From NCBI RefSeq assembly GCF_000517445.1, contig NZ_CP006965.1:1712681-1776680 (forward strand): DNA of 64,000 bases, read 5' to 3'. Below, one piece after another: positions 7,316 through 37,667 of the stretch. Source of the DNA: Thermococcus paralvinellae (GTDB lineage: Archaea; Methanobacteriota_B; Thermococci; Thermococcales; Thermococcaceae). The notes under the pieces were generated by a model that worked only from the letters and a program-made list of their open reading frames with translations, was not told where the DNA came from and searched no databases. Position numbers and translations under genes: made by a program. Every line of letters begins with the position of its first letter. Position 1 is the first letter of the stretch.

Positions 7316-7376
7316 ACATTCACACTTTGCACAAACCTTTTTTAAAGTATAAAGCGTTAAATTTCTTGGTGATATC

Positions 7377-7640: not shown

Positions 7641-7641
7641 G

Positions 7642-18759: not shown

Positions 18760-18804
18760 AAAAGTAAATGTTTTCACAAATCAGCAACTTTTTTCGAGTT
18801 TTTG

Positions 18805-18821: not shown

Positions 18822-18837
18822 CATTTTTGCTTAACAA

Positions 18838-18848
18838 AATTTTATAAG
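18838..18848 (+). promoter_or_regulatory. TATA box for the FBP aldolase/phosphatase gene
   Basis: ATTTTATAAGG, preceded by an A-rich stretch, lies 34-44 bp before the ATG at 18882. A start about 25 bp downstream gives a leader of roughly 10-15 nt that just contains the GGTGAC ribosome-binding sequence. Confidence 0.65.
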
Positions 18849-18881
18849 GCTAAAATAACATATGGTTATTTGGTGACGAAA

Positions 18882-20006: not shown

Positions 20007-20010
20007 AGCC

Positions 20011-20029
20011 TCTATTCTTTTTAATTTTC
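20011..20029 (+). terminator. T-rich terminator after the FBP gene
   Basis: TCTATTCTTTTTAATTTTC begins 5 bp after the stop codon region and separates the FBP transcript from the oppositely regulated GAPOR promoter. Confidence 0.4.
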
Positions 20030-20076
20030 ACGTACTTATTTGTACATGTTCTTGGGAGCTTTCTCATTCAAAAACC

Positions 20077-20085
20077 TTAAATAAT
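20077..20085 (+). promoter_or_regulatory. TATA box for the GAPOR gene
   Basis: TTAAATAAT preceded by AAAACC (BRE-like). The predicted transcription start at about 20105 falls inside the TGM that follows. Confidence 0.55.
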
Positions 20086-20097
20086 TCTTTTCTAAAC

Positions 20098-20114
20098 TAA
20101 CACTCAGAGTGATA
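20098..20114. promoter_or_regulatory. TGM overlapping the predicted start site of the GAPOR gene
   Basis: TAACACTCAGAGTGATA matches TATCAC-N5-GTGATA with one mismatch. It lies downstream of the TATA box, the position established for glycolytic genes repressed by Tgr/TrmBL1 when maltodextrin-type sugars are absent. Confidence 0.85.
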
Positions 20115-20127
20115 TGGAGGGATCAGC

Positions 20128-22086
20128 ATGAAATTCACAGTCCTCAAAATTAAGCTGGACAGTGAAGAAATCAAAATGGAAAGCGTGGAGAAGGAAGGGA
20201 TATATGGAATCATAGACTACGCTCTTTACCTTCATGATGAGGTTTACAAAACATACGAAGTTGATCCTTATGACCCAATGAATGTCACAGTTTTCGGAAA
20301 AGGTCCATTTGCCGGTTCTGTTCTTCCAGGAGCACACAGATTGATGTTTGTCTTTCGCTCACCACTCTACGGAGTCATCTTTCCTTCAGCGATGGGTGGA
20401 GCAGCATATCAGTTCCAGAGAGTTGGAGTGGACTTTGTAGTTCTTGAAGGTAAGAGAGAGAAGCCAACCATAATTCTTCTACAAGGAGATGGAGAAAACA
20501 TCAACGTTGAGTTGCATGAAATAGAGTTGGAAAAAGTTATCGAAATCTGGAAGGGATACAAGGGAGAAGAAGGCGTCTATGCCCTAACTGAATATCTCAT
20601 AGATAACTTCAAGGATAAATTTGACAGTGAATTTAGAATTGCCTGTGTTGGTCCAGCTTCACTCAACTCGAACTTTGGGGCCATCTTCTCACAGACGTTA
20701 AAGAATGGAAAGCGTGTAGAAGGAAGCGAGGACTGGGCAGCAAGAGGAGGAAGCGGAAGCGTCTTGATGAGAGCTCATAACGTTGTTGCGATAATCTTTG
20801 GAGGAAAAGCAAAGAAAAAATTCCCCAAAGAGAACATTGGGGACATAAAAGTCGCAAGACCTATAGTTGAGGGGGTTCACAAAAAACCAATGTTCCAAAT
20901 TATCAGTGAAAAGACTACAAAGTATAAATACAATCCAAAGCTGAAGACTGGTGGAACTTTTGGTGGAAACTATCCAGCTGAAGGCGACTTCGTGCCAATT
21001 CTAAACTGGCAGATGCCCTACATTAACAAAGAGGAGAGAATCAAGATTCACGAGAACATAATGAAGCACTACTGGGAGCCTTTCAACAAGGAAGCTATTG
21101 AAACTAAGAACTGGACGACTTGTGGTGAACCGTGTCCTGTCGTCTGTAAGAAGTTCCGTAGAGGTCACCACGTCGAGTATGAGCCTTATGAAGCTAACGG
21201 ACCATTAAGCGGAAGCATAGCACTTAGGGCAAGCGATATAAGTGTTCACGCTGTTGATGCAATGGGCTTTGATGCAATAGAATTCGGTGGTCTAGCTGCA
21301 TGGGTTCTTGAGCTCGTTTACAGAGGACTTCTCAAGCCAGAAGAAGTTGGCTTAAGCGATAAGCCAGAGTTCAACAAAGATGCCCTAATTCTGAAACCTG
21401 TTGAAGCGAGCGAAAAGAATGCAAAGCTTGTTGCAGAATTAGCCCATAAAGTGGCTTTTGCAGAAACTGAAATTGCCAAGATTTTAGGCTTGGGAAAGAG
21501 AAAAGCAAGCGCAATTCTTGATGAGAAGTTCAAGGATAGATTAAACTATGGCGAGAGCTTCAAAGACTATGCAGTCTTTACACCTCTTGGTGAAGATGGA
21601 GAAATCTGTCCAACAATGTATTGGGCAATAGGAAATTACATTCCGTTGCCAATTCAAGGAAGATACTGGACATTCTACCAGTTTGGAGTTTTCCTTGAGC
21701 CCGAAGAGCTTGCCCAGAAGATAGTGGCAAGCGCCTTATGGGAGTTCTGGTATGACAATGTTGGGTGGTGTAGATTCCATAGAGGTTGGATGAAACCAGT
21801 TCTCAAAGCTCTCTTCCTCGAAGCCTATGGTGAGAATGTCGACATGGAAGAACACGCAAAGAAAGTCATAAGAAAGCTCATAAACTATGCAAAGAAAGCG
21901 GGTTATGAGCCTGTATTCTGGGACAGCATGAGAGTCATTGATTTAGTTGTTGCAGGTGCGGAAGAGTTTGGAAATGAGAAGTGGGCAGAGAAGTTCAAGG
22001 AGGACAAAGTTGGCACTGCAAAAGAATACCTCAAGAGAGTGCTCGATGCTTACAGTGAAATTTTAGGAGTTGATTGGACAATTTAA
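20128..22086 (+). CDS. gor: Glyceraldehyde-3-phosphate:ferredoxin oxidoreductase (GAPOR), tungsten enzyme
   Basis: 652 aa, AOR family. GAPOR oxidises GAP irreversibly to 3-phosphoglycerate with ferredoxin as acceptor in the modified Embden-Meyerhof pathway of Thermococcales. The protein has the N-terminal pterin-binding domain ('GKGPFAGSVLPGAHRLMFVFRSPLYGVIFPSAMGG', 'ARGGSGSVLMRAHNVVAIIFGG') and cysteines 'CGEPCPVVC' that, with a later Cys, would bind the 4Fe-4S cluster. The C-terminal part is AOR-like. GGAGGGATC precedes the ATG. Cofactor genes moaD, moeB-like and moaE lie within 13 kb. The TGM over the start site predicts repression during gluconeogenesis. Confidence 0.95.
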   Translation: MKFTVLKIKLDSEEIKMESVEKEGIYGIIDYALYLHDEVYKTYEVDPYDPMNVTVFGKGPFAGSVLPGAHRLMFVFRSPLYGVIFPSAMGGAAYQFQRVGVDFVVLEGKREKPTIILLQGDGENINVELHEIELEKVIEIWKGYKGEEGVYALTEYLIDNFKDKFDSEFRIACVGPASLNSNFGAIFSQTLKNGKRVEGSEDWAARGGSGSVLMRAHNVVAIIFGGKAKKKFPKENIGDIKVARPIVEGVHKKPMFQIISEKTTKYKYNPKLKTGGTFGGNYPAEGDFVPILNWQMPYINKEERIKIHENIMKHYWEPFNKEAIETKNWTTCGEPCPVVCKKFRRGHHVEYEPYEANGPLSGSIALRASDISVHAVDAMGFDAIEFGGLAAWVLELVYRGLLKPEEVGLSDKPEFNKDALILKPVEASEKNAKLVAELAHKVAFAETEIAKILGLGKRKASAILDEKFKDRLNYGESFKDYAVFTPLGEDGEICPTMYWAIGNYIPLPIQGRYWTFYQFGVFLEPEELAQKIVASALWEFWYDNVGWCRFHRGWMKPVLKALFLEAYGENVDMEEHAKKVIRKLINYAKKAGYEPVFWDSMRVIDLVVAGAEEFGNEKWAEKFKEDKVGTAKEYLKRVLDAYSEILGVDWTI

Positions 22087-22122
22087 ATTTTCCTTCTTAC
22101 TTATCTACATATCCAAAAATAA

Positions 22123-22818
<696 letters not shown>

Positions 22819-22867: not shown

Positions 22868-23893
22868 CTATGCCTTCTCAATAACTATTAGATCGGCCTC
22901 GATATCTTCAAGAGAAGAATTCCAGCCACCGACAACATACCTTTTTCCGTCTTCAGTCTCAACAGTGATATTTGAAATAACCTTAGCTTTATCTTCGTAG
23001 TAGTCCACTATCCTACCCTCAATTTCTACAGGTTCTTTGCTTTTAACGAACTTCCCTATGACTCTAACTTTTGAATTCATTAAGTTAAAGAGCCGTATAT
23101 CCCTAACTAACTTTCTTATGTGAATATACTCTTTTGGAAGAATCAACTTCCTTTCTTCCTCATACACAGTCTTTCCGGTAGGCCAGAGGGCATGATAGAA
23201 ATATCGGTCAAACATGAACAGTAAATTTTCATCTTTAATTATCATTGCGTAGCCGTGAAGACTTGAAGTTCCTGACATCAGGGCTTCACTCGGTGCATAA
23301 ATTCCCATCTCTTTATCTTGGATCAAAATAAATGGATCTGGAACCTCCCTAATCTTGATTTTATGAGCAACTGGGGGAACTTTGCCTGTTCCATATACAA
23401 ATAAATCTATCTCGACACCCATCTTTTTCTTCTTCATGAGGTCATCTTGAATTTTCCTCAAGAAAGAGAGAGGAAGAGCCAAAGATATATGCCTCTTGGC
23501 ATTTTTGATGGCATCTTTTACATATTTTTCAAAGGTTATCTTGCTTTTCACTACGATTATATTCCCTATCTCACCCTCTCCCGGGTTGTAAAGCTCCTTC
23601 AGCATTTCTTTTACCAAATTAACTTTTCTGACATATTTACGCTCGATTTCAGAGAAAACTTTTTCTGGATTAACTGCAACTACCTTTTTAGGTCTACCAC
23701 CGATTGTTATTACAAATCCTTTGCCCATAAGAGTTCTAATTACGTCGTATATCCTTGGCTGAGGAACTTTTGAGAGAGTTGCCAATTCACCAGCTGTTAA
23801 AGGTCCTTCCTTGATTAGGGTAAGGTATGCACTAACCTCATACTCATTGAATCCTAGCTCCTTGAGGAGTTCTTTAAGTTCTTTTTCGCTCAT
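22868..23893 (-). CDS. TrmB-family sugar-sensing transcriptional regulator
   Basis: 341 aa. An N-terminal TrmB winged helix ('LKELGFNEYEVSAYLTLIKEGPLTAGELATLSKVPQPRIYDVIRTLMGKGFV', residues 8-60) precedes a linker and a long effector domain with the 'ITFEKYVKDAIKNAKRHISLALP' PLD-like strand pattern. A C-terminal beta part is present too. Length equals Thermococcus litoralis TrmB (~338 aa), a maltose/trehalose-responsive repressor. It is the last gene of the ABC transporter operon, 9 bp after the ATPase gene, so it probably controls this transporter. The candidate site is the motif shared by the promoters at 28122 and 30265. Confidence 0.88.
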   Translation of the reverse strand: MSEKELKELLKELGFNEYEVSAYLTLIKEGPLTAGELATLSKVPQPRIYDVIRTLMGKGFVITIGGRPKKVVAVNPEKVFSEIERKYVRKVNLVKEMLKELYNPGEGEIGNIIVVKSKITFEKYVKDAIKNAKRHISLALPLSFLRKIQDDLMKKKKMGVEIDLFVYGTGKVPPVAHKIKIREVPDPFILIQDKEMGIYAPSEALMSGTSSLHGYAMIIKDENLLFMFDRYFYHALWPTGKTVYEEERKLILPKEYIHIRKLVRDIRLFNLMNSKVRVIGKFVKSKEPVEIEGRIVDYYEDKAKVISNITVETEDGKRYVVGGWNSSLEDIEADLIVIEKA

Positions 23894-23901: not shown

Positions 23902-25014
23902 TCAGATTATCGCTTTTTCGGTGCTCTTATCAAAGACATGAATATTGTCAAGGTCTATGATTATGCTAATTTCTTTCTTTAACTCTACTGCTACATGACC
24001 AGGTATTTTAACTTTTATGATTTTACTCCCCACTCTTGCATGGATTATTGTATCAGTTCCCAGCGCTTCTACAAAATCAACCACACCTTTAATCTTTGCC
24101 TTTCTTTTGACGTGCAGAAATTCAGAGATGCCCTCAACAGTCATGTGCTCCGGCCTTATTCCAAACACAACAGTTTTGTTAATGTAATCTCTAAGGAGTT
24201 CCCCCAACTCCTCAGGGAGAGGCACTTCAAATCCTTCTCCCTCTAAAACAACACCTTTATCAGTTTCTTTGACAGTAACATCAACAATGTTCATCTCTGG
24301 GGCCCCTATGAAAGTTGCAACAAAGATTGAATTTGGCTTCGAGTAAACTTCCACTGGTGGCCCTACTTGTAGGACTTTTCCTTGCCTCATCACAGCAATT
24401 CTGTCACCCATTGTCATTGCCTCAACCTGATCGTGGGTAACATAAATCGTCGTGACCTTAAGCTGAGCTTGAAGCTTTTTAATTTCAGCACGCATCATGA
24501 CTCTGAGCTTTGCATCTAAATTTGAGAGAGGTTCGTCCATTAAGAGAACATCAGGCTCAACAACAATAGCCCTAGCAACTGCAACTCTTTGCCTCTGACC
24601 ACCACTTAGCTGGGCAGGATATCTGTCCAAAAGCTCCTCTATCTGCAAAAGCTCAGCAACCCACTTGACTTTTTTTCTAATTTCATTTTCTGGGTATTTC
24701 TTTATCCTCAATGGAAACGCTATGTTGTCGTAGACTTTCATATGCGGCCATACTGCATAGCTCTGGAAGACCATCGAAATGTTTCTGTCCTTTGGGGGCA
24801 GATATGTTACGTCTCTATCCCCAAACCATATCTTTCCCGCTGTTGGTATTTCTAGTCCAGAGATCATTCTAAGTGTTGTTGTTTTCCCACAGCCACTCGG
24901 CCCTAAAAGAACCAAAAATTCACCATCTTTTATCGTTAGGTTTATTCCATCAACTGCTTTTACCCTTCCCTTGTCAAAATACTTCTTGAGGTTTTCAAGT
25001 CTAACTTCAACCAT
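23902..25014 (-). CDS. Sugar ABC transporter ATP-binding subunit (MalK/UgpC type)
   Basis: 370 aa. Walker A 'GPSGCGKTT', Q-loop 'SMVFQSYAVWPHM', signature 'LSGGQRQRVAVARA', Walker B 'VLLMDEPLSNLDAKLR' and H-loop 'TIYVTHD' are all present. A C-terminal TOBE/regulatory domain of ~130 residues ('GIRPEHMTV') is typical of carbohydrate importers. It energises the two permeases encoded just upstream; the gene starts 10 bp after the second permease stop. The start ATG is preceded by GAGGTG. Confidence 0.93.
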   Translation of the reverse strand: MVEVRLENLKKYFDKGRVKAVDGINLTIKDGEFLVLLGPSGCGKTTTLRMISGLEIPTAGKIWFGDRDVTYLPPKDRNISMVFQSYAVWPHMKVYDNIAFPLRIKKYPENEIRKKVKWVAELLQIEELLDRYPAQLSGGQRQRVAVARAIVVEPDVLLMDEPLSNLDAKLRVMMRAEIKKLQAQLKVTTIYVTHDQVEAMTMGDRIAVMRQGKVLQVGPPVEVYSKPNSIFVATFIGAPEMNIVDVTVKETDKGVVLEGEGFEVPLPEELGELLRDYINKTVVFGIRPEHMTVEGISEFLHVKRKAKIKGVVDFVEALGTDTIIHARVGSKIIKVKIPGHVAVELKKEISIIIDLDNIHVFDKSTEKAII

Positions 25015-25023: not shown

Positions 25024-25857
25024 TCACTTGAGTGTTATACCCCACATTGTGATTAAATACTTCCTTGCGAAGAAGACGAACAGCATAGCTGGGAGCATCA
25101 TTATAAATGCAGCAGCAAATTTGTAATAATCAGGTGCAGCTCCACCACTAGCCCCTGCCATTATCGATAATATTTGGGCAGGCAGAGTTCTGTGCTGAAG
25201 AGTTAAAACCGATGCAACAAAGACCTCGTTCCACGACATGACAAAGGTAAACATTGCAGCTGCTGCCAATCCTGGAAGGGCCAATGGAAGAGTTATCCTA
25301 AGAAATGCCCCAAGTCTCGTTAATCCAAAGACCATTGCAGCCTCTTCAAGCTCAGTGGAAACTCCAGCAAAGATGCTTGAAGTTATGAGAACAACAAAGG
25401 GAAGAGCCATTGCAGTGTGAGCCAATGCAACACCAAGCAGAGTATCTATGAGATTCAGCCTGATGTAAAGCACAACCAGAGGTATTGCCATGACGGGAAT
25501 TGGAAACATCCTCAGTGCAACTATCGAGAGTTTTATGGTGTCCTTTGCTGGGAAGATGAACTTTGCTATTGCGTAACCTGCGGGAATTCCAAGAGCGAAG
25601 CTTATAATTATTGTCAAAACTGCCACGATAATGCTGTTTTTAATAGCATCAAGAGCCCTAAGTGTAAATAGCAAAGTATAAACCCACTGCTTTGTATAGT
25701 GAAAGGGAATTATCTTGCTAGGATCATAGTAATCAAGCTTTGATGAAAATGCATAAAGGGTCACTACTATCAATGGCACAACTATCCAAGCAACGACCGT
25801 AAAAACGAACGTGTAAAAGGCTATTTGCTTAAGCATGAACTTTGTCTTCTCATTCAT
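25024..25857 (-). CDS. Sugar ABC transporter permease (MalG type)
   Basis: 277 aa with six TM helices. The EAA loop 'EEAAMVFGLTRLGAFLRITLPLALPGLAAAAMF' couples to the ATPase. Overlaps the preceding permease gene by 4 bp (ATGA type). MalG-like permeases form a heterodimer with MalF-like partners; the substrate cannot be told from this subunit. Confidence 0.92.
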   Translation of the reverse strand: MNEKTKFMLKQIAFYTFVFTVVAWIVVPLIVVTLYAFSSKLDYYDPSKIIPFHYTKQWVYTLLFTLRALDAIKNSIIVAVLTIIISFALGIPAGYAIAKFIFPAKDTIKLSIVALRMFPIPVMAIPLVVLYIRLNLIDTLLGVALAHTAMALPFVVLITSSIFAGVSTELEEAAMVFGLTRLGAFLRITLPLALPGLAAAAMFTFVMSWNEVFVASVLTLQHRTLPAQILSIMAGASGGAAPDYYKFAAAFIMMLPAMLFVFFARKYLITMWGITLK

Positions 25858-26708
25858 TCTTTCACCTCCAAATACTCAGCTTTCATGAACTTGATGTACA
25901 TGGCTCCAAGAACAATTGAAAGCGCAGCAATTGTCAATGCATAGATTGAAGCAACACCATAGTCCTTAATCTCGGTGAGCTGATAGAAACCTTCTCCAGC
26001 CAAAATTGGGATATCCCTCCCTGCCAAGATCCAGACGATACCGAAGACCTGCATTGCAAAGAGCGTTCTTATTATTAGGGCACTCTGGATACTTGGTTTC
26101 AATAGTGGAATCACTATTTTCCTTAACTTTGTCCAATAATCCGCCCCAAACACTTCTGCTGCTTCCAAGTACTCCGGACTTATCATCTGCAAACCGGCTA
26201 GGATAATAACGAATACAATTGCAGTCGCTCTCCAAAGCTCCGCTAGGACTATTGCTAAAAATTCCATATGCCTAAATTGATAACCAAAGAAATAAACCGG
26301 ATTATCAATTAATCCAATGTTCAGAAATAGCTTATTCAAAAATCCGCTTGGAGAAAGCATGGCATACCAAATCAGACCTGCAGCAACATCGCTAATCGTG
26401 AGGGGAATTATTAAAGCATAAAGCGCTAAATCTTTACCTTTAAATGCCCTGTTCATAACCAGGGCTAAAACTAATGCCAAACCAACTTGAGTAGGCACAA
26501 TAACGGCAGCTAAACCGATAGTATATTTAAGAGCATCCCAAAAACGGGGATCACTAATCGTTCTATTAACAGTTGCAAGAGAAAAAGCACCATTCTCAGT
26601 GAAAGCTAAATACAGAGCTTGAATAAGGGGATAACCAACAAAAAACATCAGATATGCAAAAGCCGGCAAAATTAAAAGATAGGGAAGATAGGAGGCCTTA
26701 ACCTTCAT
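25854..26708 (-). CDS. Sugar ABC transporter permease (MalF type)
   Basis: 284 aa, six TM helices, EAA loop 'LEAAEVFGADYWTKLRKIVIPLLKPSIQSALI'. It is shorter than enterobacterial MalF, having no large periplasmic insertion, as usual for archaeal CUT1 permeases. GGAGG lies 5 nt before the ATG. It is 9 bp downstream of the binding-protein gene and overlaps the partner permease gene by 4 bp. Confidence 0.92.
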   Translation of the reverse strand: MKVKASYLPYLLILPAFAYLMFFVGYPLIQALYLAFTENGAFSLATVNRTISDPRFWDALKYTIGLAAVIVPTQVGLALVLALVMNRAFKGKDLALYALIIPLTISDVAAGLIWYAMLSPSGFLNKLFLNIGLIDNPVYFFGYQFRHMEFLAIVLAELWRATAIVFVIILAGLQMISPEYLEAAEVFGADYWTKLRKIVIPLLKPSIQSALIIRTLFAMQVFGIVWILAGRDIPILAGEGFYQLTEIKDYGVASIYALTIAALSIVLGAMYIKFMKAEYLEVKE

Positions 26709-26717: not shown

Positions 26718-28055
26718 TCATGGAACTTCTACGCCTTGCTCCTCAAAGAGTCCAATAAGCTTTGGCTTAAGCTCTTTTGTGACTGCCGCTGGATCTTCGC
26801 CCTTAAGAACTATTCTCTCAAATGCTGTTCTGTAAATGTCCTTGAATTCACCACCTTTTGCTCCAAGGTTTGGAATCATTGCAACAACTGCATCTGGTGT
26901 TGCGGACTGTACAGCAACACCTTCAGCCAGAATCTTAAGTGGTCCTTCTGGTAATACACCACTTGCTTCTTTGACTGTTGGGAAGAATCCAACCTTCTCA
27001 AGGACTTTAACCTGTGTCTCTGGTCTTGTGAGGTAATCAATTAACTTCCATGCTTCCTCTGGGTGTGGAGCGCCCTTTGGAATTGCCAATCCTGCAACTA
27101 CTAAGATAAATCCTCTTCCCTTTGGTCCTCTTGGAACAGGAACAACTACGAATTGATCTGGACTTGTCTCAATTGCGTTTTTAATTCTTGCAGTGTGATC
27201 CCAAGCAATAAGAACCTCTCCTCTTAAGAGCGGCTCAGCCATTGCATCCCAAGTTGTGCTTGCTGGGTTTACATACGGCCAGAGCTCCTTGAGGTAGTTC
27301 CACATTGTAACTGCCTCTGGGCTGTCAAATGCCTTTGTTTGGTAACCAGTGAATGATGGATAGATGTACCCGTGGAGGAATCTTACAAAGAGTCCTTTTG
27401 GTCCAGCTGGAAATCCGACTTGTGGCTTTCCTGTTGCCTCTTTAAGCTTCTTGGCCCAAGCTAAGAATGCATCGTAAGTCCACTTGTCAGTTCCCTTCAT
27501 AACATCCTCCTTTGTAAGTCCATCTGGCAAGTACTCAAATGCCTTCTTGTTGATTACCATAACGTATGTAGCACTCATCCATGGAACGTAAACCTTCTTT
27601 CCTCCAATTGTTGCATATTTCTCAAAGGTTGTTATGAAAGTTCTTCCCTCAAGCTTCGGCATTCCGCTTAAGTCCATGAGCCAGCCTTTTGAGTTAAAGT
27701 AATCTAGACCACCATGCAAGTCACCGATGAGATCAATAGTAACTTTTCCAGCTTTTTCCTCAGCCTCAAGTCTTGTAGCCATGTCAGAATAGCTTATGGG
27801 TATGAAATCAACATCAATTCCCGTCTCTTTCTTAAATCCGCTCAGGAGCTCTTCTTGAACAAAAACTCTCTCCTCTGGTGGATTTAGCTGTGTTGAGAGC
27901 CAAATAAGCTTTACTGCTTCTTTTGGCTGCTCAGTAGTTGTTGGCTGTTCAGAAGTAGTCGGTGTTGTTGTCTTTTCGCCACCTATGCACCCACTTACTA
28001 TCGCTCCTAAAAGAACGAAAACCAAAAGCCCCACAATTTTTGCTTTTCGGTTCAT
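26718..28055 (-). CDS. Sugar-binding lipoprotein of ABC transporter (MalE/UgpB-like)
   Basis: 445 aa. Signal peptide with lipobox VSGC (Cys about residue 23), a Thr/Pro-rich tether, then an extracellular solute-binding protein family 1 fold ('EELLSGFKKETGIDVDFIPISYSDMATRLEAE', 'VYVPWMSATYVMVINKKAFEYL', 'GEVLIAWDHTARIKNAI'). It captures the substrate at the cell surface; the sugar is unknown. It is the first gene of the operon SBP-permease-permease-ATPase-TrmB. The promoter has a TATA box (TTTATATAT on the minus strand, about 28103-28112) with the shared operator motif directly upstream. Confidence 0.92.
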   Translation of the reverse strand: MNRKAKIVGLLVFVLLGAIVSGCIGGEKTTTPTTSEQPTTTEQPKEAVKLIWLSTQLNPPEERVFVQEELLSGFKKETGIDVDFIPISYSDMATRLEAEEKAGKVTIDLIGDLHGGLDYFNSKGWLMDLSGMPKLEGRTFITTFEKYATIGGKKVYVPWMSATYVMVINKKAFEYLPDGLTKEDVMKGTDKWTYDAFLAWAKKLKEATGKPQVGFPAGPKGLFVRFLHGYIYPSFTGYQTKAFDSPEAVTMWNYLKELWPYVNPASTTWDAMAEPLLRGEVLIAWDHTARIKNAIETSPDQFVVVPVPRGPKGRGFILVVAGLAIPKGAPHPEEAWKLIDYLTRPETQVKVLEKVGFFPTVKEASGVLPEGPLKILAEGVAVQSATPDAVVAMIPNLGAKGGEFKDIYRTAFERIVLKGEDPAAVTKELKPKLIGLFEEQGVEVP

Positions 28056-28121
28056 TAACCCTCACCTCAGTGCAGTAAGTCACTAAAATCTACTTCAAGG
28101 AGATATATAAACATTATGATA

Positions 28122-28142
28122 AAACCACTTTTAGTTGTTGTA
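28122..28142 (-). promoter_or_regulatory. Shared operator-like motif upstream of the ABC transporter promoter
   Basis: On the minus strand it reads TACAACAACTAAAAGTGGTT followed by T. It lies about 12 bp upstream of the TATA box of the binding-protein gene. A near-identical copy sits at the same relative place in front of the Gfo/Idh genes (30265-30285). Regulation by the TrmB-type protein of this operon is inferred. Confidence 0.65.
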
Positions 28143-28177
28143 TTTTGTAAAGGAAACCAAAAAAAGAAGAGGAGAAA

Positions 28178-29182
28178 TTAGAGTTTTACAATCTTTCCAG
28201 TTCTAGAAGACTCGTAAGCTGCCAAAACTATCTCCAAGTTTTTCTTTGCATCTTCCCCAGTTATTGGGGGTTCTTTATCCTCAAGTATGGATTCTATAAA
28301 GTATTTAACAATGTTTTCGACATCTGGCCTCTCCCAGTAAATCTTTTCAGCCCTGTCTTGGTACACTGTGAAATCGGGATACGCTGTTCTTATATCCAAA
28401 AAGCCGTCCTTACCAAGGATATAGTATTTCATTTCAAGCCCATAGGGATAGCCTCTTGGGTTGCCCCAGCCAGCATTTAACACCGCAGTGACACCATTCC
28501 TGAATTCTAAAACTGCAGTCCCAATGTCATCAACTGGAAATCCATAAATCTTCGAACCAATATCGGCGTAAACCCTCTTAACATCGCTCTCTGTCAACCA
28601 GAGGAGAGAATCAATTCCATGTGGTGCAGTGTCCATAAATCCTCCTCCACCAGACTTTCTAACATCGAGGAACCAAGTCATATCCAAGCCTTCAAGGAAT
28701 ATTGGTGGCTTAACATACTCTGAAATTGCATAGATGTATTCCAACTTTCCTATTTCTCCGTTTTCAATCATGCTCTTTGCTTTCCTAAGAGGAATTGTGA
28801 ATCTTGGATTGAAAGGAACCATTAGTTTAACCCCAGCCTTCTTGGCTGCTTTGATAATTTCGTCAGCATCTTCAAGAGTCAAAGCAATTGGCTTTTCTAG
28901 GAGAAGATGTTTCCCCTCTTCAATAACTCTAAGGGCAACTTCCTTATGGCGGTAAGTCTCAATTGCGACATAAACAGCATCAACTTTTTTATCCTTCAGC
29001 AAGTCTTCATAGTTCTTATAGAATTTAGCCTTAAGTCTCTGAGCTTCCCTTTTAGCAACATCAGAATTAGAACCATCTCCGGAAATTGCATACAGCTTAG
29101 CTTTTGGATTGGAAGCAAAAGTTGATCCATACCTGATGGCATGAGGATGAGCATAGCTTATAATTCCAATGTTAATTTTCAT
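28178..29182 (-). CDS. Gfo/Idh/MocA-family NAD(P)-dependent oxidoreductase
   Basis: 334 aa. N-terminal Rossmann fold ('INIGIISYAHPHAIRYGSTFASNPKAKLYAIS'), the family hallmark 'EKPIALTLEDADEI' (Lys of the catalytic EKP), and a C-terminal alpha/beta dimer domain with 'MDTAPHGIDSLLWL'. The first glycine motif is unusual (GIISYAHPH instead of GxGxxG). Such enzymes oxidise or reduce the hydroxyl groups of sugars or inositols. Overlaps the upstream paralogue by 4 bp; the two together may carry out coupled oxidation and reduction on one sugar. 122 bp separates it from the ABC operon. Confidence 0.88.
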   Translation of the reverse strand: MKINIGIISYAHPHAIRYGSTFASNPKAKLYAISGDGSNSDVAKREAQRLKAKFYKNYEDLLKDKKVDAVYVAIETYRHKEVALRVIEEGKHLLLEKPIALTLEDADEIIKAAKKAGVKLMVPFNPRFTIPLRKAKSMIENGEIGKLEYIYAISEYVKPPIFLEGLDMTWFLDVRKSGGGGFMDTAPHGIDSLLWLTESDVKRVYADIGSKIYGFPVDDIGTAVLEFRNGVTAVLNAGWGNPRGYPYGLEMKYYILGKDGFLDIRTAYPDFTVYQDRAEKIYWERPDVENIVKYFIESILEDKEPPITGEDAKKNLEIVLAAYESSRTGKIVKL

Positions 29183-30210
29183 ACTACCACCCCCTTGAGG
29201 TTAACAGGTTCCTCTTTGTGAGCTGATTCAATGGCCTTTTCAGCGATTTGAAGTGCTATCAATGCATCTCTCGCTGTAATCACTGGCTCTTCTTTTCCAA
29301 GAATTACACGGAAGAAGTGCCTCAATTCTCTTTCGAATGCATCTGGAAATGTTGAGAGCATTGGGGAAAATCTAGGCATTTCAAAGTGACTCTTAATGAC
29401 ACCAACAACTGGAGTGTCCATTGGAGTGTAGCGAATCCTTCCATTTTTGCCAAGAATATCGAGATGATGGTAGAACACACCATAACGAGCTGGATACGAA
29501 TATGCCCAGCTCACCTCAGCTATTCCAGTCTTTCCCCCCTCAAACTGTATCATCATGACAAAGTGATCGTATGTGTTGTTAACCCTCGCTTCCTTCCTTA
29601 TCTCTTTTCCAATTCCAAGAACCCTAACAGGCTCGCTCTCAAAGAACCACCTCAAGAAATCAGTGACATGGACTCCTAAATCAATTGCAACTCCCCCACC
29701 TTTATGAGGCTTCCAGTACCATGCACTTTCTGGAAAAGGAAGTCTTTGAACCTCTGCTTTTCTAATTTGCATTGGTAAGATGTTTCTCTTTTTGATAATT
29801 TCTTTTATCTGCATCCATCTCTTATCAAATCTCCTCGTGTGTCCAACCAAAAGCCACAATCCTTCTTTTTCTGCTGTCTTTATCATTTTTTCTGCTTCTT
29901 CACTTCTTAAGGCGATTGGTTTTTCAACAATGACATGCTTGCCAGCTTTCAGTGCTTTAATTGCAATCTCAGCATGAGTATAAGTTGGGGTTAGAATTTC
30001 AACAACATCCAAATCTAAGTCAAGAAATTCATCCAAATTTGTAAAATACTTAGCATTAAACTCTTTTGCGGCTTCTCTTGCTTTCTTTTCTTTAATATCC
30101 ATAAAGGCCACAACTTTTATTATTTCAATGTTTTTAAGGGCGTTCTTATGGGCCAAATTGAATATATTTCCACAACCTACAACGCCTACTCTTAGCTTCC
30201 GCTCAGGCAT
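29179..30210 (-). CDS. Gfo/Idh/MocA-family NAD(P)-dependent oxidoreductase
   Basis: 343 aa. Canonical dinucleotide motif 'VGVVGCGNIFNLAHKNALKN', catalytic 'VEKPIALRSEEAEKMI', and 'GGGVAIDLGVHVTDFLRWFF' with the conserved Asp/His of the active site. The C-terminal domain is typical of glucose-fructose oxidoreductase/inositol dehydrogenase relatives. First gene of the two-gene operon; its promoter (TATA about 30244-30252 on the minus strand) carries the motif shared with the ABC transporter operon. The divergent glycosyltransferase uses the same 92-bp intergenic region. Confidence 0.9.
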   Translation of the reverse strand: MPERKLRVGVVGCGNIFNLAHKNALKNIEIIKVVAFMDIKEKKAREAAKEFNAKYFTNLDEFLDLDLDVVEILTPTYTHAEIAIKALKAGKHVIVEKPIALRSEEAEKMIKTAEKEGLWLLVGHTRRFDKRWMQIKEIIKKRNILPMQIRKAEVQRLPFPESAWYWKPHKGGGVAIDLGVHVTDFLRWFFESEPVRVLGIGKEIRKEARVNNTYDHFVMMIQFEGGKTGIAEVSWAYSYPARYGVFYHHLDILGKNGRIRYTPMDTPVVGVIKSHFEMPRFSPMLSTFPDAFERELRHFFRVILGKEEPVITARDALIALQIAEKAIESAHKEEPVNLKGVVV

Positions 30211-30264
30211 ATGGCATCACTAATAGTAACCGACAAACAAAAAGTATATAACATTTTTCATTAT

Positions 30265-30285
30265 AAACCACTTTAGATGGTTGTA
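30265..30285 (-). promoter_or_regulatory. Shared operator-like motif in the oxidoreductase/glycosyltransferase intergenic region
   Basis: On the minus strand it reads TACAACCATCTAAAGTGGTT followed by T. It contains inverted arms AACCA/TGGTT. It lies about 14 bp upstream of the TATA box of the oxidoreductase operon, and on the plus strand it lies just before the glycosyltransferase ribosome-binding site, close to that gene's expected start. Related copy at 28122-28142. Confidence 0.65.
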
Positions 30286-30302: not shown

Positions 30303-31445
30303 ATGAAAGTTATGGTGGGAATACCCAGCTACAACAATGCTGACACCATAGGCTTTGTAGTTAAGCAAGCAGCTGAAGGATTGAAAAAATATTTTGGTGG
30401 AGGAATAATAGCTAATGCCGATGGTGGGAGCAGTGATGGAACGAGAGAAGTAGTCATGAAGACCAAAGTTCCGGAAGGAGTGGAAGTAATGAGCTTCGTT
30501 TATAAATGGCCAATTCCCGGCAAAGGTAGCGCAATGAAAGAGCTTATGGAACTTGCAAGGGAAAAAGGTGTTGATGTTCTTGTTTTTGTTGACAGCGATT
30601 TGAGAAGTATAACTCCAGAATGGATTTACAAATTTGCTAAGCCTATCGAGGATGGTTATGATTTCGTTGCTCCGCTCTATATAAGGCACAAATATGACGG
30701 GACAATAACAAACAACATCGCTTATCCAATGACCGCATCTCTGTATGGCTACAATGTTAGGCAACCAATTGGAGGAGATTTCGGGATTAGTGCAGAGCTG
30801 ATTGATGTTTATTTAGCGGATGAAGAGACTTGGAAAACAGATGTTGCAAGATTTGGTGTTGATATCTTTTTAACCACAACAGCCCTAGCTGAGGGATTCA
30901 GAGTAATTCAAACAGCCCTTGGCTTGAAGATACACAATCCAAAGGATCCAGCTGCTTCACTTGGCCCAATGTTCAACCAAGTCGTGGGAACTTTGTTCAT
31001 GTTAATGAAGAAATATGAGGAGAAGTGGAAGCCAGTTAAGGAAATTAAAAAAGTTAAAACTTTCGGGAGCATTAAATGGCAAGAGCCAGAAGAAGTAAAA
31101 GTTACACTTAAACTGCTTAAAGAAAAAGCAAGAGAACTCTTCAACGAAAATAAAGCAATCTTAAAGAAAGCTTTAGCTGAAGAAACATTTGCCCAAGTTA
31201 CTAAGGCCCTTGAAACCTTTGAACTTGATGATGTCCTTTGGAGTCATGTTCTTTTTGATGGTGCTGTTGCATACAAGAAGGGAATTCTCAAAAATGCCGA
31301 ACCACTAATTCCGCTCTACTTTGCAAAGACTGCTGATTTCGTTGAAAAGACGAAAGAGTTAACAACGGCAGAAGCAGAGAAGATAATCCAGGAGAGAGCA
31401 AAGATTTTCTTGGAGGAAAAAGACTACCTGCTTGAGAAGTGGTGA
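30303..31445 (+). CDS. GT-A glycosyltransferase, possibly glucosylglycerate/mannosylglycerate-type synthase
   Basis: 380 aa from ATG 30303 (GGTGAT 4 nt upstream). GT-A fold: 'MVGIPSYNNADTIGFVVKQA', nucleotide-sugar contact 'NADGGSSDGTREVV', and a metal-binding DSD in 'VLVFVDSDLRS'. 'FVAPLYIRHKYDGTITNNIAYPM' and 'QPIGGDFG' recall glucosyl-3-phosphoglycerate/glucosylglycerate synthases (GT81-like), which make compatible solutes. The C-terminal ~130 residues are helical. It is divergent from the Gfo/Idh pair and shares a regulatory motif with the ABC transporter. The exact donor and acceptor are not readable. Confidence 0.75.
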   Translation: MKVMVGIPSYNNADTIGFVVKQAAEGLKKYFGGGIIANADGGSSDGTREVVMKTKVPEGVEVMSFVYKWPIPGKGSAMKELMELAREKGVDVLVFVDSDLRSITPEWIYKFAKPIEDGYDFVAPLYIRHKYDGTITNNIAYPMTASLYGYNVRQPIGGDFGISAELIDVYLADEETWKTDVARFGVDIFLTTTALAEGFRVIQTALGLKIHNPKDPAASLGPMFNQVVGTLFMLMKKYEEKWKPVKEIKKVKTFGSIKWQEPEEVKVTLKLLKEKARELFNENKAILKKALAEETFAQVTKALETFELDDVLWSHVLFDGAVAYKKGILKNAEPLIPLYFAKTADFVEKTKELTTAEAEKIIQERAKIFLEEKDYLLEKW

Positions 31446-32405: not shown

Positions 32406-35400
32406 CTAAGCTCCAAAGAACTCATCCAAACTGACAACTTTCTTTTTCTTCTTAGGTTTGGGCTTCTCAGACTTTTCAGACTTATGAGTTTGTGTTTTAG
32501 CAGAGTCTACTCTTTTTTCAACTGTTTTCGGCGTTTCTACCTTCTTCTTTCCGTTTCCATTGAACTTATCAAGATAGCCGTTCTTAGCAACAACTTTTCC
32601 TGTCCTCTCAGCAATCATTCTGTCACAGATGTCATTTGTGTTTAACGCCAACAGAGTTCTCTGAGTTTCGGGGAAGACATTTGTAAATAGAGTTTTAATG
32701 TCTTTCTCCGTTAAGCATATCCTCTGCCTCGTGTAATTGAGCACATCATAGTTCGCAACCAACAGTTTTGCTGTCGGAAGATATTTTTCAATAGCACCCT
32801 TGCTGACTGTTAGGACTATCTTTCCACCACACTTTGGACATTTTCCACTCAAAGGAGGTCTTCTGTACTTAGTATTGCACTTTACACATCTAAATTCCTG
32901 CCTTGTAAAGCTCCTCAAGTTACCTCTCAAGTCTGGAATTAGATGAGAGTTAATTATCGTCTCAGCAACGTGATGCTCATTAACAGCCCTAATTTTCTCA
33001 GCCAAAGCTAATTGCTGCCTAACTTTTTCCTCCATATCTCCCAACTGCTTGTACTTGCTCAGCTTTGGTCCAAGAGCAATGTCATCGGTGTCATGGGTGA
33101 ACTTTAAGCCTTCATACATCTCCGGCTTCCCTAATCTATCCTCAACCCTTTCAACAACCCCAACAAGTTCCTTCGGAGATTTAAGTTCATACGTTGCTTC
33201 ATAGAATTCGAGCGGATAATAACGGGCAATGTCCATATTGTGGACTTCGCTGTCAACTTCTCTTGGATCAAGCCTTGTAGTTACAACGAGAGGAGCATCC
33301 ATTTTTCCTCCACGCTTCTCGGGCAGATAATAACGGGAGAAGTTCAATAATGCATCAAGGAGGAGCATGACAGCATCCTCGTCGCCATCACATTGAGATG
33401 TTACAATATTTTCATTTATTATGACATTATGATATATTTTAGCATTTAGAGAAAACACAAAGTCATCAATTGATTTGACATACTCGACACGCTTAACCTT
33501 TAGGAGCCATCCATTTTCAGTGAAGTGCTTATCCTTAACGCGATTTCTAGTCTTGTGTAAGTCATAAACAGAGTTCTTACGCTCACTAATGAAGCCAATC
33601 TCCTCAAAGAACCTGTCATAGTGTTCACCAGCTATGTTGAGAGCATATACCTTAGATACTGGCGGCTCGTTTCCACGCTCAATATGATAGAGCCTTCCGC
33701 GAGCGTTGCCTCTGTTGGCATTCTTGTCCATAGTGTAATATCCTCTGATACCAAACTTGGACAGAAGCAAAGTTTCAATATCCTCAAGGAGGGGCTTGTT
33801 AACGCTATAAACAACTACACGAGCAGCTGTTTTCAAGGCACTCCCATCTCCCTCGAAATACGCCTGAAGCAAGTGCCTAACCTTCTCCTTTGGAAGCTTG
33901 AAGACAAATGCCGGGACCCTTTTATCCTTAGCTCCTTTTCCAATCTTTAGAACTCTAGTGAAAAGCAGATAGATAACCCTTGAGCCAACAGTTATTTTCT
34001 CCCCACGCTCGTAGATTCCAAAGCCATCTCCGAAGGCTTTCCTAAGGGCACGTTTAATGTCCTCTCTAACATCCTCATCTCCGTTTGAGAAGCTTATCTG
34101 ATAGACACTGTCACTCTCTCTTGCGTAACCTTCTGCTAAATAGTAGCCTATAAGCCTAAGGAGAGGCTCTATTGGAATGAAGCGCTTGATTTTTACGTGG
34201 TCGCGCTTAAAGCCAATGTAACAGTCAGGCACATCCTTAATCGAGAGACCCTTTTCTTTCAAAACCTCAAGGAGAACTGCCAAGGGTATGGAATTTCTTC
34301 TTATGTAGTCAGGGTTAACTTCAGCACCAATTTCAATTAGCCATTCAGCTATTCCGCGAACCATTATCCCCTCATGAAGCTCCTCAAACTCGTCTTTTGA
34401 GAATTCCTCGAGCAAATCTATGCTGTCAATATCATCTTCTGGAAACTCAATCTTAGGTACAAGAATCAAGTCACCTTCCTTTACTTCAAAAGCTCTCTTC
34501 TTAATGAACCCCCCATTTTCGTAGACGAGCACCGGATGATCAACCGTCGTTTTAAAACTCCTACCCAGCTCAAGCTCGAACCTTATGATGTGATCAGTTG
34601 AAGGCAGTTTAATCACGTCTTCAATGTCAGTTAAAACTACTTTTCCGCTCTCTTCGTCAAAGGAATAAACTTTGATATCTACTTTTGGCTTCTTTCTTAC
34701 ATATGCCATGTTTTCATAGCTTTCTTCTTCAAATAGCTCATACAGCTCTCTGAGCGTTATCCTCTGAGGCATTCCGTTGATCTGAACAAGTATTCTAGTA
34801 TCACCAGGGAAGCAGTTCCTCCTCTTTGCAGCATGATAATACGGATGAGCGTAGCCCACAAGAGCATCAACAAATCCTATAATCCTTCCAATGATTCCAG
34901 CGGATGTGTGCGGAGCTAAGCCTATGACAAGATGACCAATCAAATCCTCCATCTTCTCGACATTGTAGAACCTTGGCAGACCATAAAACCTCTCAAGCAG
35001 GTCATCTATAAACTTTGCAACCCTTACAAGATACTTTCCAGCCTCTTTAGAAAGGATAATATCTTGAACTTTGAGCTCAACTATCTGATCTTCATTCACC
35101 AAAGGCTTTCCTTCAAAGTCATGGGTATAGCCCAATTCACGGAGCTTCTCAACGCTTACTCCAATCTCTCTCGGCTTGAAATGAGTTATTGGTGCATCTG
35201 TTGCATCAAAACGAATTGTACCATCCTTGAACACATACACATCATTCTTAGCCCTCAGTATTCCCTTCTCTAATGGCTCTGGCACTTTGTGGGCTGAAGT
35301 CATACCCATAACGCCTTTGAGCTTATCAAGAGTATTCACTCTCACATTTTGCATTGCCTGTTTTACAAGTTGAGAGGGGTTTATTGTCCTTTTGACATAA

Positions 35401-37667
35401 GCCCTCATCTCAATGCCGCACTTTGAACAGATCGTTTCCTCGGTTGACTGATAACCACACTTTGGACATCTATACAACAGCTTAGCCTCAGCTCCACACA
35501 CGGGACAAGTTGGAAAGATATCAACATGACCGCAGTTGGTGCACTTGAACTGGGCGATCTCAACCTCGGCGAGCTTTCCTTCCTGTGCAGCTTTGTAAAT
35601 ATCTCTCGAGCTACCTCCGGCCAAACCAATCGGGAAGAGGACGTGAACTGGTGGCTTCATTTTTCTCTCTTTAGCTTTTTCCGGTCTTCCCATTCTCGCA
35701 CCAATCCAGCTTATTCCTCTGTCCCTAAGCTTTACCTCACTGATTTCATTGATTATGTCCATGGAAGTGTGGAATTCCTTTGGCTCAAATCTTTTCTCCA
35801 AGTTAGCTAAGGGAGTTAGCAAAGCGGCGCTCCAAGGATACTCAATGATTACGCTTCCATCTTCAACCCTGTGAGGCAAGCCGAGCAGTTCAAGGTAGCG
35901 CTTGCCTGTTCTTCTAAGCACTTCCAAGCTTATTACAATCTTCTTGGCATACTTTGTTCCAAGATATTTGTCCCACTCAATCTCAGCATTGACGAGGAGA
36001 TTCTGCAGTTCAGCGACTTCCTCTGGCTTAAGGGTGTTCCAGTAGAGAGTGTAGTATGGGTGAAGGGGAATCCCAAGGACTTTTGATAGATGGATTGCCT
36101 CTTCAACTTTTGGTCTAACTCTCATTGGGTCTCTCAAAAGCTCTGCCAAAAATTCAGGCTTTAAGTCAAGGTAATCCGCGGCTTCTTCAACTGCCTCTTT
36201 ATCATTTTCAGCAAAGGGCTTGAGAGAAACTTCATATATGTCTTCAACTGCTTTCACAAACTCTTGAATCCACCATTCTTCAACATAATTAGCTGGAAGT
36301 AAGGTTTGATTGTTCTCCACAAAGTCTCCAAACGCTATAATTGCATCACCCAAGTAGAGAATTTCCTCGACTTGATCCCTAATCTTTAAAGCAAGATAGT
36401 AATCGTCAACCCTAATGACAGAGCCATCTTTGAGCTTGACAATTGGGCCTTCAGCTGTTGTAGCAGGAGTAACGATACAGCCCTTTCCAGGCCTTTCAGT
36501 CTTCATTTGCGTTCCTACAGCTAAGAATTCATCAACGAGAATCATGACTGCCGGGTTTATACTCCAAGTTGCGAATCCACTTACTCTTGAGCGACCGTAC
36601 CTCAAACGGAAGCCACCATTTTCAGATGGCTCTGCAAATAATGGTCTTCCCCCAATGATTTCCTTTGTGTATTTGTTATTTGGAGCAATATTAGCCCTGA
36701 ATTTTTCATAAAGTTCATAATAGAAGCCTTTTTTAACTTTTACAGAAGTCCTTATCTCAGCTTCTTCTGCTTTTGAGTCCTCAGCTTTCTCTTCTGTCTC
36801 TTCTTCCGTTTTGCCCCTCTCCTTTGCTTCAACAAATTCCTTAAGCCAGTCCCAGCCCTCAATACCCATTTTATCAATATATTTAACCAGCTTTTTCGCC
36901 TTTTGAAGAACACCTTCTGCCAAAACGAGAATTGCTCCACCTCTTAGCTGATTAGTCTCAACTCCCGGAACGTCTCTATGAGAAACTTCAACGTCATCAG
37001 TCGCTTCACCAGTTATCTCAACTGGAATATTTTGCATAGCCAGTCTCACTTCATCTGCTGATGGATGATACTGCAAGCGAGTAACGGCTCTGTGATACAA
37101 ATCAACTTCTTCAACCATTCTCTCTATGTGTTTCTCTGTGGGCTTAAAGCGATCCAATCCAAGCTTTTTCCTAACGTAATCACCAACGAGAACACTCAAT
37201 GCCTGAGCAGTTCCACCAGAACTTCTGATTGGGCCAGCGTAGTAGAGAGCCAAATACTCAGTTCCATCAAGATTCTTCTTGATTTTAACCTGAGCTATAC
37301 CTTCAATTGGAGCAGAAACTATACCCTCCGTCAGAATAGCCAATGCCGTTCTAACAGCCTGCTCCGCCAGCTTTTCTTTACTATCAAACTCTCCAAATTT
37401 GCCTTCAATGATTTCATCAACAATTTTAAGAGCAGCAAGCTCTTTGCCATACTCCTTTGCGAGCTCCCTAATTCTTTTGGCAACACCTTTTGGACCAACC
37501 AAGCTTTCGACACGACCCGCCATGTCTGTTGCTTGAGGAATTTCAACATCTCTGACAGGATCTTTTCCCTGAGCTCTCGCTTTCTTGGCTATCTCATAAG
37601 CCTTATCAATTTCTTTCTGCAACATTTCAAAATAAGCTTTCATTTCATCGCTGTAAAGCTCGCTCAT
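32406..37667 (-). CDS. polC: DNA polymerase D large subunit (DP2), with intein
   Basis: 1753 aa precursor; 1279 aa after removal of the 474-residue intein (precursor residues 952-1425). DP2 is the catalytic subunit of the replicative archaeal polymerase D, with a two-barrel active site. Visible: the conserved N-terminus 'YFEMLQKEIDKAYEIAKKAR', a cysteine-rich zinc block 'CTNCGHVDIFPTCPVCGAEAKLLYRCPKCGYQSTEETICSKCG', and the catalytic C-extein beginning 'CDGDEDAVMLLLDALLNFSRYYLP'. A second zinc pair 'CVKCNTKY...CPKCGGK' follows, then a Lys/Pro/Thr-rich tail ending in a PCNA-binding-like 'SLDEFFGA'. The start overlaps the DP1 stop by 4 bp. Confidence 0.97.
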   Translation of the reverse strand: MSELYSDEMKAYFEMLQKEIDKAYEIAKKARAQGKDPVRDVEIPQATDMAGRVESLVGPKGVAKRIRELAKEYGKELAALKIVDEIIEGKFGEFDSKEKLAEQAVRTALAILTEGIVSAPIEGIAQVKIKKNLDGTEYLALYYAGPIRSSGGTAQALSVLVGDYVRKKLGLDRFKPTEKHIERMVEEVDLYHRAVTRLQYHPSADEVRLAMQNIPVEITGEATDDVEVSHRDVPGVETNQLRGGAILVLAEGVLQKAKKLVKYIDKMGIEGWDWLKEFVEAKERGKTEEETEEKAEDSKAEEAEIRTSVKVKKGFYYELYEKFRANIAPNNKYTKEIIGGRPLFAEPSENGGFRLRYGRSRVSGFATWSINPAVMILVDEFLAVGTQMKTERPGKGCIVTPATTAEGPIVKLKDGSVIRVDDYYLALKIRDQVEEILYLGDAIIAFGDFVENNQTLLPANYVEEWWIQEFVKAVEDIYEVSLKPFAENDKEAVEEAADYLDLKPEFLAELLRDPMRVRPKVEEAIHLSKVLGIPLHPYYTLYWNTLKPEEVAELQNLLVNAEIEWDKYLGTKYAKKIVISLEVLRRTGKRYLELLGLPHRVEDGSVIIEYPWSAALLTPLANLEKRFEPKEFHTSMDIINEISEVKLRDRGISWIGARMGRPEKAKERKMKPPVHVLFPIGLAGGSSRDIYKAAQEGKLAEVEIAQFKCTNCGHVDIFPTCPVCGAEAKLLYRCPKCGYQSTEETICSKCGIEMRAYVKRTINPSQLVKQAMQNVRVNTLDKLKGVMGMTSAHKVPEPLEKGILRAKNDVYVFKDGTIRFDATDAPITHFKPREIGVSVEKLRELGYTHDFEGKPLVNEDQIVELKVQDIILSKEAGKYLVRVAKFIDDLLERFYGLPRFYNVEKMEDLIGHLVIGLAPHTSAGIIGRIIGFVDALVGYAHPYYHAAKRRNCFPGDTRILVQINGMPQRITLRELYELFEEESYENMAYVRKKPKVDIKVYSFDEESGKVVLTDIEDVIKLPSTDHIIRFELELGRSFKTTVDHPVLVYENGGFIKKRAFEVKEGDLILVPKIEFPEDDIDSIDLLEEFSKDEFEELHEGIMVRGIAEWLIEIGAEVNPDYIRRNSIPLAVLLEVLKEKGLSIKDVPDCYIGFKRDHVKIKRFIPIEPLLRLIGYYLAEGYARESDSVYQISFSNGDEDVREDIKRALRKAFGDGFGIYERGEKITVGSRVIYLLFTRVLKIGKGAKDKRVPAFVFKLPKEKVRHLLQAYFEGDGSALKTAARVVVYSVNKPLLEDIETLLLSKFGIRGYYTMDKNANRGNARGRLYHIERGNEPPVSKVYALNIAGEHYDRFFEEIGFISERKNSVYDLHKTRNRVKDKHFTENGWLLKVKRVEYVKSIDDFVFSLNAKIYHNVIINENIVTSQCDGDEDAVMLLLDALLNFSRYYLPEKRGGKMDAPLVVTTRLDPREVDSEVHNMDIARYYPLEFYEATYELKSPKELVGVVERVEDRLGKPEMYEGLKFTHDTDDIALGPKLSKYKQLGDMEEKVRQQLALAEKIRAVNEHHVAETIINSHLIPDLRGNLRSFTRQEFRCVKCNTKYRRPPLSGKCPKCGGKIVLTVSKGAIEKYLPTAKLLVANYDVLNYTRQRICLTEKDIKTLFTNVFPETQRTLLALNTNDICDRMIAERTGKVVAKNGYLDKFNGNGKKKVETPKTVEKRVDSAKTQTHKSEKSEKPKPKKKKKVVSLDEFFGA
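33393..34814 (-). other. Intein within PolD large subunit, with homing endonuclease domain
   Basis: 474 residues, exactly 1422 bp, between extein ends KRRN and CDGDE. Block A is CFPGDTRIL, block B contains TVDHPV (T-x2-H). Two LAGLIDADG-type motifs are 'LIGYYLAEGYA' and 'LLQAYFEGDGSA', both with acidic catalytic residues, so the endonuclease may be active. The C-terminal residues are TSQ before the +1 Cys: the usual His-Asn is replaced by Ser-Gln. A C-terminal Gln is known for the Pyrococcus abyssi PolII intein at this site and still supports splicing. Confidence 0.95.

Follow-up and report, generated by a model that had tools for sequence, protein, structure and literature searches.

Background

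TrmBL5 of Thermococcus barophilus was described together with the cluster TERMP_01835-01840, and the only site given for it was an in-silico one, TACT-N6-AGATA at positions 1,624,822-1,624,836 (PMC10667668). The Gfo/Idh and glycosyltransferase genes were not linked to TrmBL5 in that study, and deletion of TrmBL4 left the expression of TERMP_01835 unaffected (PMC10667668). According to an earlier finding reported there, the T. barophilus transporter cluster was raised at 40 MPa and undetected at 0.1 MPa (PMC10667668). Mannosylglycerate accumulates strongly in T. barophilus at sub-optimal pressure (PMC4932500). For TrmBL1 of Pyrococcus furiosus, a site downstream of the promoter led to repression of 9/9 tested templates, and a site upstream of the promoter led to activation of 2/3 templates (PMC4706686). 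No established binding site, set of targets, ligand or function had so far gone with the name TrmBL5.

The window analyzed here, meaning the whole stretch of 64,000 nucleotides, originates from the 1.96-Mb genome of Thermococcus paralvinellae. The comparison set consisted of 94 Thermococcaceae genomes, which were searched with the pattern TRCAACNANNNNNAGTGGTT. The locus is read as a TrmBL5-run glycosylglycerate regulon in which one regulator would activate, repress and switch the direction of transcription, and the probability of this whole reading is put at roughly 0.6.

Gene content of the locus

The features are listed in Table 1. The ABC-trmBL5 operon (28055 down to 22868) is read from the solute-binding protein gene through two permeases and the ATPase to the regulator. 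Both Gfo/Idh proteins have Rossmann and C-terminal domains (Pfam), and the catalytic motifs EKP and DxxxH, the latter read as DLGVH or DTAPH, were seen in the translations. They scored below all NCBIfam cut-offs, including the inositol dehydrogenase and UDP-GlcNAc 3-dehydrogenase equivalogs. Myo-inositol, suggested by the best NCBIfam name for both proteins, was rejected as a reading, as the scores were far under the cut-off and no further inositol enzyme was recognized in the cluster.

Table 1. Coordinates of the cluster genes, operators and TATA boxes in the window.
Feature	Position	Strand	Remarks
TrmB-family regulator, ortholog of TERMP_01835 (TrmBL5), last operon gene	22868..23893	-	Pfam TrmB and Regulator_TrmB
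ABC importer ATPase, MalK/UgpC type	23902..25014	-	Pfam and NCBIfam
ABC importer permease	25024..25857	-	Pfam and NCBIfam
ABC importer permease	25854..26708	-	Pfam and NCBIfam
Solute-binding protein, first gene of the ABC-trmBL5 operon	26718..28055	-	Pfam
TATA box region of the ABC-trmBL5 operon	28101..28110	-	Sequence; spacing near constant in 34 genomes
Operator 1, TACAACAACTAAAAGTGGTTTTA	28120..28142	-	Upstream of BRE/TATA of the ABC-trmBL5 operon
gfo2, Gfo/Idh/MocA dehydrogenase, SYAHPH nucleotide-binding variant	28178..29182	-	
gfo1, Gfo/Idh/MocA dehydrogenase, first operon gene, overlaps gfo2	29179..30210	-	
TATA box TATATAAC, apparently common to gfo1 (minus) and the glycosyltransferase gene (plus)	30246..30253	.	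BRE-like A-rich runs on both sides
Operator 2, TACAACCATCTAAAGTGGTTTAT	30263..30285	-	Between gfo1 and the glycosyltransferase gene
Glycosyltransferase, mannosylglycerate synthase fold; predicted glycosylglycerate synthase/transferase	30303..31445	+	

The TrmBL5 operon is adjoined by genes for a fructose-1,6-bisphosphatase-like protein, glyceraldehyde-3-phosphate:ferredoxin oxidoreductase and triosephosphate isomerase (18768-22818), and the operator was not found at these genes. Judged from the translation only, the gene for the large subunit of DNA polymerase II (32406-37667), on the other side of the cluster, seems to be interrupted in frame by an intein-like insert.

Operator sequence and distribution

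The operator is 23 bases long, can be written as TACAACnAynnnnAGTGGTT and has two copies in the T. paralvinellae genome. When the genome was searched with the strict pattern, matches were obtained solely at 28120-28142 and 30263-30285, and the same two operators were the sole matches to the family-wide pattern. A 25-base pattern built from both operators and allowing ≤3 mismatches matched only these two in the window, with 0 matches expected from the shuffled window (n = 100). The position weight matrix (PWM) scores were 33.5 and 31.5; the next-best match in the window (15.5) was operator 1 read on the reverse strand. The half-sites deviate from a perfect palindrome by one and two mismatches. 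The initial annotation had described two sites with the common blocks TACAAC, CTAAA and AGTGGTTT, and these are present as stated when the sites are read in register. Its figure of 12–14 bp between operator and TATA box was also correct: across the family, AGTGGTT and the TATA box are 12–14 nt apart at the transporter promoter and mostly 14–15 nt apart at gfo1.

In the comparison set, the pattern was present in 44/94 genomes, and all sites were at promoters of the cluster with one exception in G049, which falls within an apparent open reading frame and was set aside as a regulatory site. The reversed pattern, used as a control, occurred once in the 94 genomes. The fused consensus of the sites, drawn from about 40 genomes, is TACAACCACTTTNAGTGGTTYTA, and in many Thermococcus it becomes a near-perfect palindrome, AACCACT-N3-AGTGGTT. 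The block stands out against the variable flanking DNA, and its conservation equals that of the TATA box. Wherever trmB and the promoters were intact, the operator was found in the gfo1–transferase gap and at the promoter of the solute-binding protein in those genomes that have this promoter.

The motif was found in 43/46 genomes having a trmBL5 ortholog and in 1/48 genomes lacking it, where it falls inside a coding gene (Fisher's p = 7e-22). Shared ancestry inflates this value, and the losses, with only some two to four informative events, carry more weight. The three genomes with trmBL5 and without the motif were one whose contig ends before the promoters (G061), one with an orphan regulator (G057) and one with a decaying cluster (G081). 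Ten genomes (genus g3 and G025) have kept gfo1, gfo2 and the transferase gene, and trmBL5, the transporter and the motif are absent from them; on one short g3 contig among these ten, only the transferase gene was visible. In G079, the transporter has been lost, and trmBL5 and the motif are retained. Because of these two patterns of loss, the motif is considered to follow the regulator rather than the transporter. This joint presence and absence strongly supports the proposal of one regulon under the linked TrmB protein, made up of the ABC and Gfo/Idh operons together with the glycosyltransferase gene. Wide occurrence of the motif at unrelated promoters, which the initial annotation had named as a finding that would disprove it, was not observed. 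As sequence features, the operator and the regulon are near certain.

It could be argued that the block simply belongs to the core promoter, or was duplicated by chance, and has no regulator, since the sites are near TATA boxes, which are conserved anyway. This is highly improbable: the block is located outside BRE/TATA yet conserved as strongly as the TATA box, it is missing from other promoters genome-wide, and it disappears with trmBL5 even though the genes persist.

Several g3 genomes without TrmBL5 (L103-L107) have a conserved inverted repeat, TTTAGTTACTAAA, in place of the operator in the gfo1–glycosyltransferase gap, upstream of a different TATA-like box. In the sister family f2, the operator was not conserved. 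The f2 trmB gene is preceded by a palindrome of the TACT-N3-AGTA type (L163:1366-1388), which suggests autoregulation and may represent an older form of the operator.

A third operator was found approximately 950 bp beyond the transferase gene in some genus-g4 and genus-g2 genomes (G001, G021, G032, G034 and G038), and in the four in which its surroundings were read (G001, G032, G034 and G038) it was placed between a PfkB kinase gene and a divergent L-fucose-isomerase-like gene. The third copy lies close to a TATA box in L151, L160, L161 and their relatives. From its position, the regulon in some Thermococcus and genus-g2 genomes would also include the PfkB sugar kinase and the fucose-isomerase-like protein. 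In T. paralvinellae, the kinase and isomerase genes are found approximately 100 kb from the cluster, beside TreT and TrmB. There (L162; G000:C1:1838000-1857000), they flank an ABC importer, a GH5-like enzyme, TreT and the true TrmB in a trehalose-type cluster. The PWM scan of this region gave nothing scoring at least 8, and because no match was obtained near the kinase and isomerase genes, the regulon of this genome seems limited to three transcription units.

Regulator

The transporter operon had been said to end in a full-length TrmB protein, and both the DNA-binding and the effector domain were indeed found, the N-terminal winged-helix TrmB and the C-terminal Regulator_TrmB domains being far over the Pfam cut-offs. 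Scores against the NCBIfam equivalogs TrmB (malE-type), TrmBL1 and TrmBL2 were 95, 140 and 56 bits, respectively (cut-offs 600, 650 and 530). The protein is 93% identical to its T. barophilus ortholog TERMP_01835 (TrmBL5), which belongs to the same cluster with the same gene order, and orthologs were present in 46 genomes. The published qPCR primers for TERMP_01835 (PMC10667668) were mapped inside the ortholog in the genome G087, and the genome coordinates matched.

The sequence TACT-N6-AGATA was found in G087 exactly at 1,624,822-1,624,836. It overlaps the TATA box and was therefore rejected as the TrmBL5 operator. The conserved operator of T. barophilus is beside it, at 1,624,854-1,624,873.

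The operator is palindromic, with an ACT-N3-AGT / CAC-N5-GTG core near BRE/TATA as in the TrmB family, and TrmBL5 is very likely the protein that binds it, judging from this core and from the joint distribution of site and gene. Further TrmB paralogs are encoded in these genomes, and a regulator other than the neighboring TrmB protein might bind the operator. Binding by another regulator is improbable, however, as the motif has a TrmB-type core and tracks trmBL5 through losses, including the transporter-less genome that has kept the regulator. TrmBL4 was rejected as a candidate: by the primers, the regulator encoded in the cluster is TERMP_01835, the expression of which was unaffected by the TrmBL4 deletion (PMC10667668).

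Promoter arrangement

In 35/35 genomes, the gap between gfo1 and the transferase gene contains one symmetric TAT(A/T)TA box flanked by A-rich BRE-like runs on either side, and the operator starts 21–23 nt from the start of this box on the transferase side (35 genomes). In T. paralvinellae, operator 2 begins approximately 21 nt downstream of the start of the TATA box facing the glycosyltransferase gene. The second site had been placed at the start of the glycosyltransferase gene, and it is actually approximately 20 nt upstream of that ATG. In this genus, the operator overlaps with a further, weaker TATA-like element, TTATAAAC (30261-30268).

The operators had been assigned the position of an activator, which holds for both minus-strand operons and fails for the glycosyltransferase gene, where the site occupies the position of a repressor. 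In the proposed mechanism, a TrmBL5 dimer would bind operators of the AACCACT-N3-AGTGGTT type. The operator precedes the TATA box by 12–15 nt at the transporter and gfo1–gfo2 promoters, and bound TrmBL5 should therefore act as an activator there. The predicted transcription start of the transferase gene, approximately 25 nt from the apparently shared TATA box, would fall within the operator, and bound TrmBL5 should therefore repress this gene. Since gfo1 and the transferase gene appear to share the TATA box and the operator covers the predicted start, TrmBL5 may switch the direction of transcription; from the promoter sequence, a switch by one TrmBL5 protein on one site is plausible. A more specific version can be offered tentatively, with odds somewhat against it, in which the single symmetric core promoter and the TrmBL5 dimer would form a ligand-controlled flip from the transferase to the Gfo/Idh genes, that is, between holding and recycling glycosylglycerate. 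Opposite control of the transferase and Gfo/Idh genes is hard to reconcile with one linear pathway.

Glycosyltransferase and solute

The predicted model of the transferase (pLDDT 94) was matched by mannosylglycerate synthase in the top eight PDB matches, over the full length (TM 0.73–0.76, 397–404 alignment columns), and by glucosyl-3-phosphoglycerate synthase in the catalytic domain only. The transferase and the solved enzymes have low sequence identity (about 16% across the fold of mannosylglycerate synthase). The transferase scored 32.9 bits against Pfam MGS_GT (cut-off 27) and its f2 homolog 38.9 bits, and the score against the NCBIfam equivalog for glucosyl-3-phosphoglycerate synthase (GpgS) was 54 bits, below the cut-off of 262. 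R128, which aligns with residue 131 of mannosylglycerate synthase, was invariant among 20 transferase homologs. In glucosyl-3-phosphoglycerate synthase, the Arg of the acceptor motif GRVT binds phosphate. The motif reads GTIT or GVIT in the transferase, and because the Arg is replaced with Thr or Val, phosphoglycerate is a less likely acceptor.

The neighboring genes in other lineages were also considered. In L164, from the archaeal family f2, a glycerate 2-kinase gene comes after the transferase gene, and the same ABC genes are nearby, as are the two gfo genes. On another f2 contig, the glycerate 2-kinase gene is followed by a TrmB gene. A Bipolaricaulota contig (L197) has the order ABC importer, GT4, transferase and an overlapping glycerate 2-kinase; the GT4 protein matches mannosylglucosylglycerate synthase below its cut-off, and GT4 and the transferase are adjacent again on another Bipolaricaulota contig. 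No glycerate kinase was found in the Thermococcaceae clusters, and the T. paralvinellae copy is located elsewhere in the genome. The fold, R128, the GTIT/GVIT motif and the glycerate 2-kinase neighbors together suggest that the acceptor or product is probably glycerate. A kinase adjoining the transferase would fit the breakdown direction, by analogy with TreT for trehalose.

The mannosylglycerate biosynthesis gene PF09488 was found in 45/51 genomes with the transferase and 13/43 without it; among the more complete genus g4 genomes, the counts were 13/18 and 8/31 (p 0.0025). All transferase genomes without the regulator have PF09488, and all transferase genomes without PF09488 have the regulator cluster, a pattern as expected if the enzymes need an imported or home-made solute.

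The initial annotation had read the locus as serving a sugar or compatible solute, which stands and can be narrowed to glycosylglycerate by the fold and the glycerate 2-kinase neighbors. Given the mannosylglycerate synthase fold and the neighboring glycerate 2-kinase and sugar importer genes, the cluster is read as a regulon for glycosylglycerate uptake and turnover, and on this sequence and model evidence the solute is likely mannosyl- or glucosylglycerate. The ABC system would import the glycosylglycerate, and the transferase would exchange the sugar with a nucleotide diphosphate, so that glycerate is released or consumed. The Gfo/Idh pair may oxidize or epimerize the sugar part, which is the weakest step of the scheme.

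The TrmBL5 regulon could be as described and serve a different solute, such as a mannoside, an inositol derivative or some other glycoside or polyol, with the transferase making or breaking something else. The best score of the Gfo/Idh proteins was for inositol 2-dehydrogenase, although below the cut-off. In the Thermococcus genome L152, the kinase and isomerase genes are adjoined, downstream of the isomerase gene (5117-7868), by genes for a glycoside hydrolase of the MGH1-like type and for a GH130 protein that matches beta-1,2-mannobiose phosphorylase; they suggest mannoside use and would fit a mannoside as the solute. This alternative is taken seriously but considered unlikely, as the full-length mannosylglycerate synthase fold points to glycerate and glycerate 2-kinase neighbors occur in two distant lineages. 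With glycosylglycerate as the preferred solute, the pressure response of the transporter cluster and the accumulation of mannosylglycerate fit a recycling role.

For TrmBL5, the analysis offers a precisely defined operator, a delimited set of targets and a candidate ligand that can be tested. For Thermococcales, it suggests a route for uptake and turnover of glycosylglycerate, their salt- and pressure-stress solute; no description of such a route in Thermococcales was found in the literature searched, and a search on glucosylglycerate synthase and related terms returned nothing on this cluster.

Comparison with known systems

The T. barophilus TrmBL5 system has the same regulator and transporter operon as the locus described here (PMC10667668). 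The TrmB-controlled trehalose-maltose (TM) operon of T. litoralis and P. furiosus also combines an ABC sugar importer with a TrmB-family regulator (PMC4158304). Its glycosyltransferase is the NDP-sugar-dependent TreT (PMC4158304), whereas a mannosylglycerate synthase-type transferase and a Gfo/Idh pair are present here. The TrmB site TACT-N3-AGTA has the ACT-N3-AGT core in common with the operator, in which the arms are AACCACT-N3-AGTGGTT, and the TM operator is placed over the TATA box (PMC4158304), while the TrmBL5 operator is upstream of it. The regulator is 27% identical to the TrmB of its own genome over the whole protein.

The glycolytic motif of TrmBL1/Tgr, TATCAC-N5-GTGATA, has the same CAC-N5-GTG core as the TrmBL5 operator, and position-dependent activation and repression, known for TrmBL1 (PMC4706686), are proposed likewise for TrmBL5. 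The two differ in the outer arms (AAC/GTT for TrmBL5, TAT/ATA for TrmBL1) and in the number of sites per genome (two or three for TrmBL5, tens for TrmBL1), and the proteins are about 30% identical. By its sequence, the operator is thus a TrmB-family variant with the known CAC-N5-GTG core and new outer arms.

The transferase has the same fold as mannosylglycerate synthase (GT78), including the C-terminal part, and an Arg aligned with its residue 131. The QP(I/L)GG motif is common to the GT78 and GT81 enzymes and the transferase, with low sequence identity. The GT81 enzyme glucosyl-3-phosphoglycerate synthase has the GRVT Arg, in contrast to Thr or Val here. The ycj cluster of E. coli contains a glucosylglycerate phosphorylase, an ABC importer and a glycoside 3-dehydrogenase. 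It resembles the present cluster in bringing together an importer, a glycosylglycerate enzyme and a Gfo/Idh dehydrogenase, and differs in having a phosphorylase instead of a transferase and a bacterial regulator. Compared with these systems, the regulon would be a new variation on TrmB control, with a proposed ligand and mechanism that can be tested.
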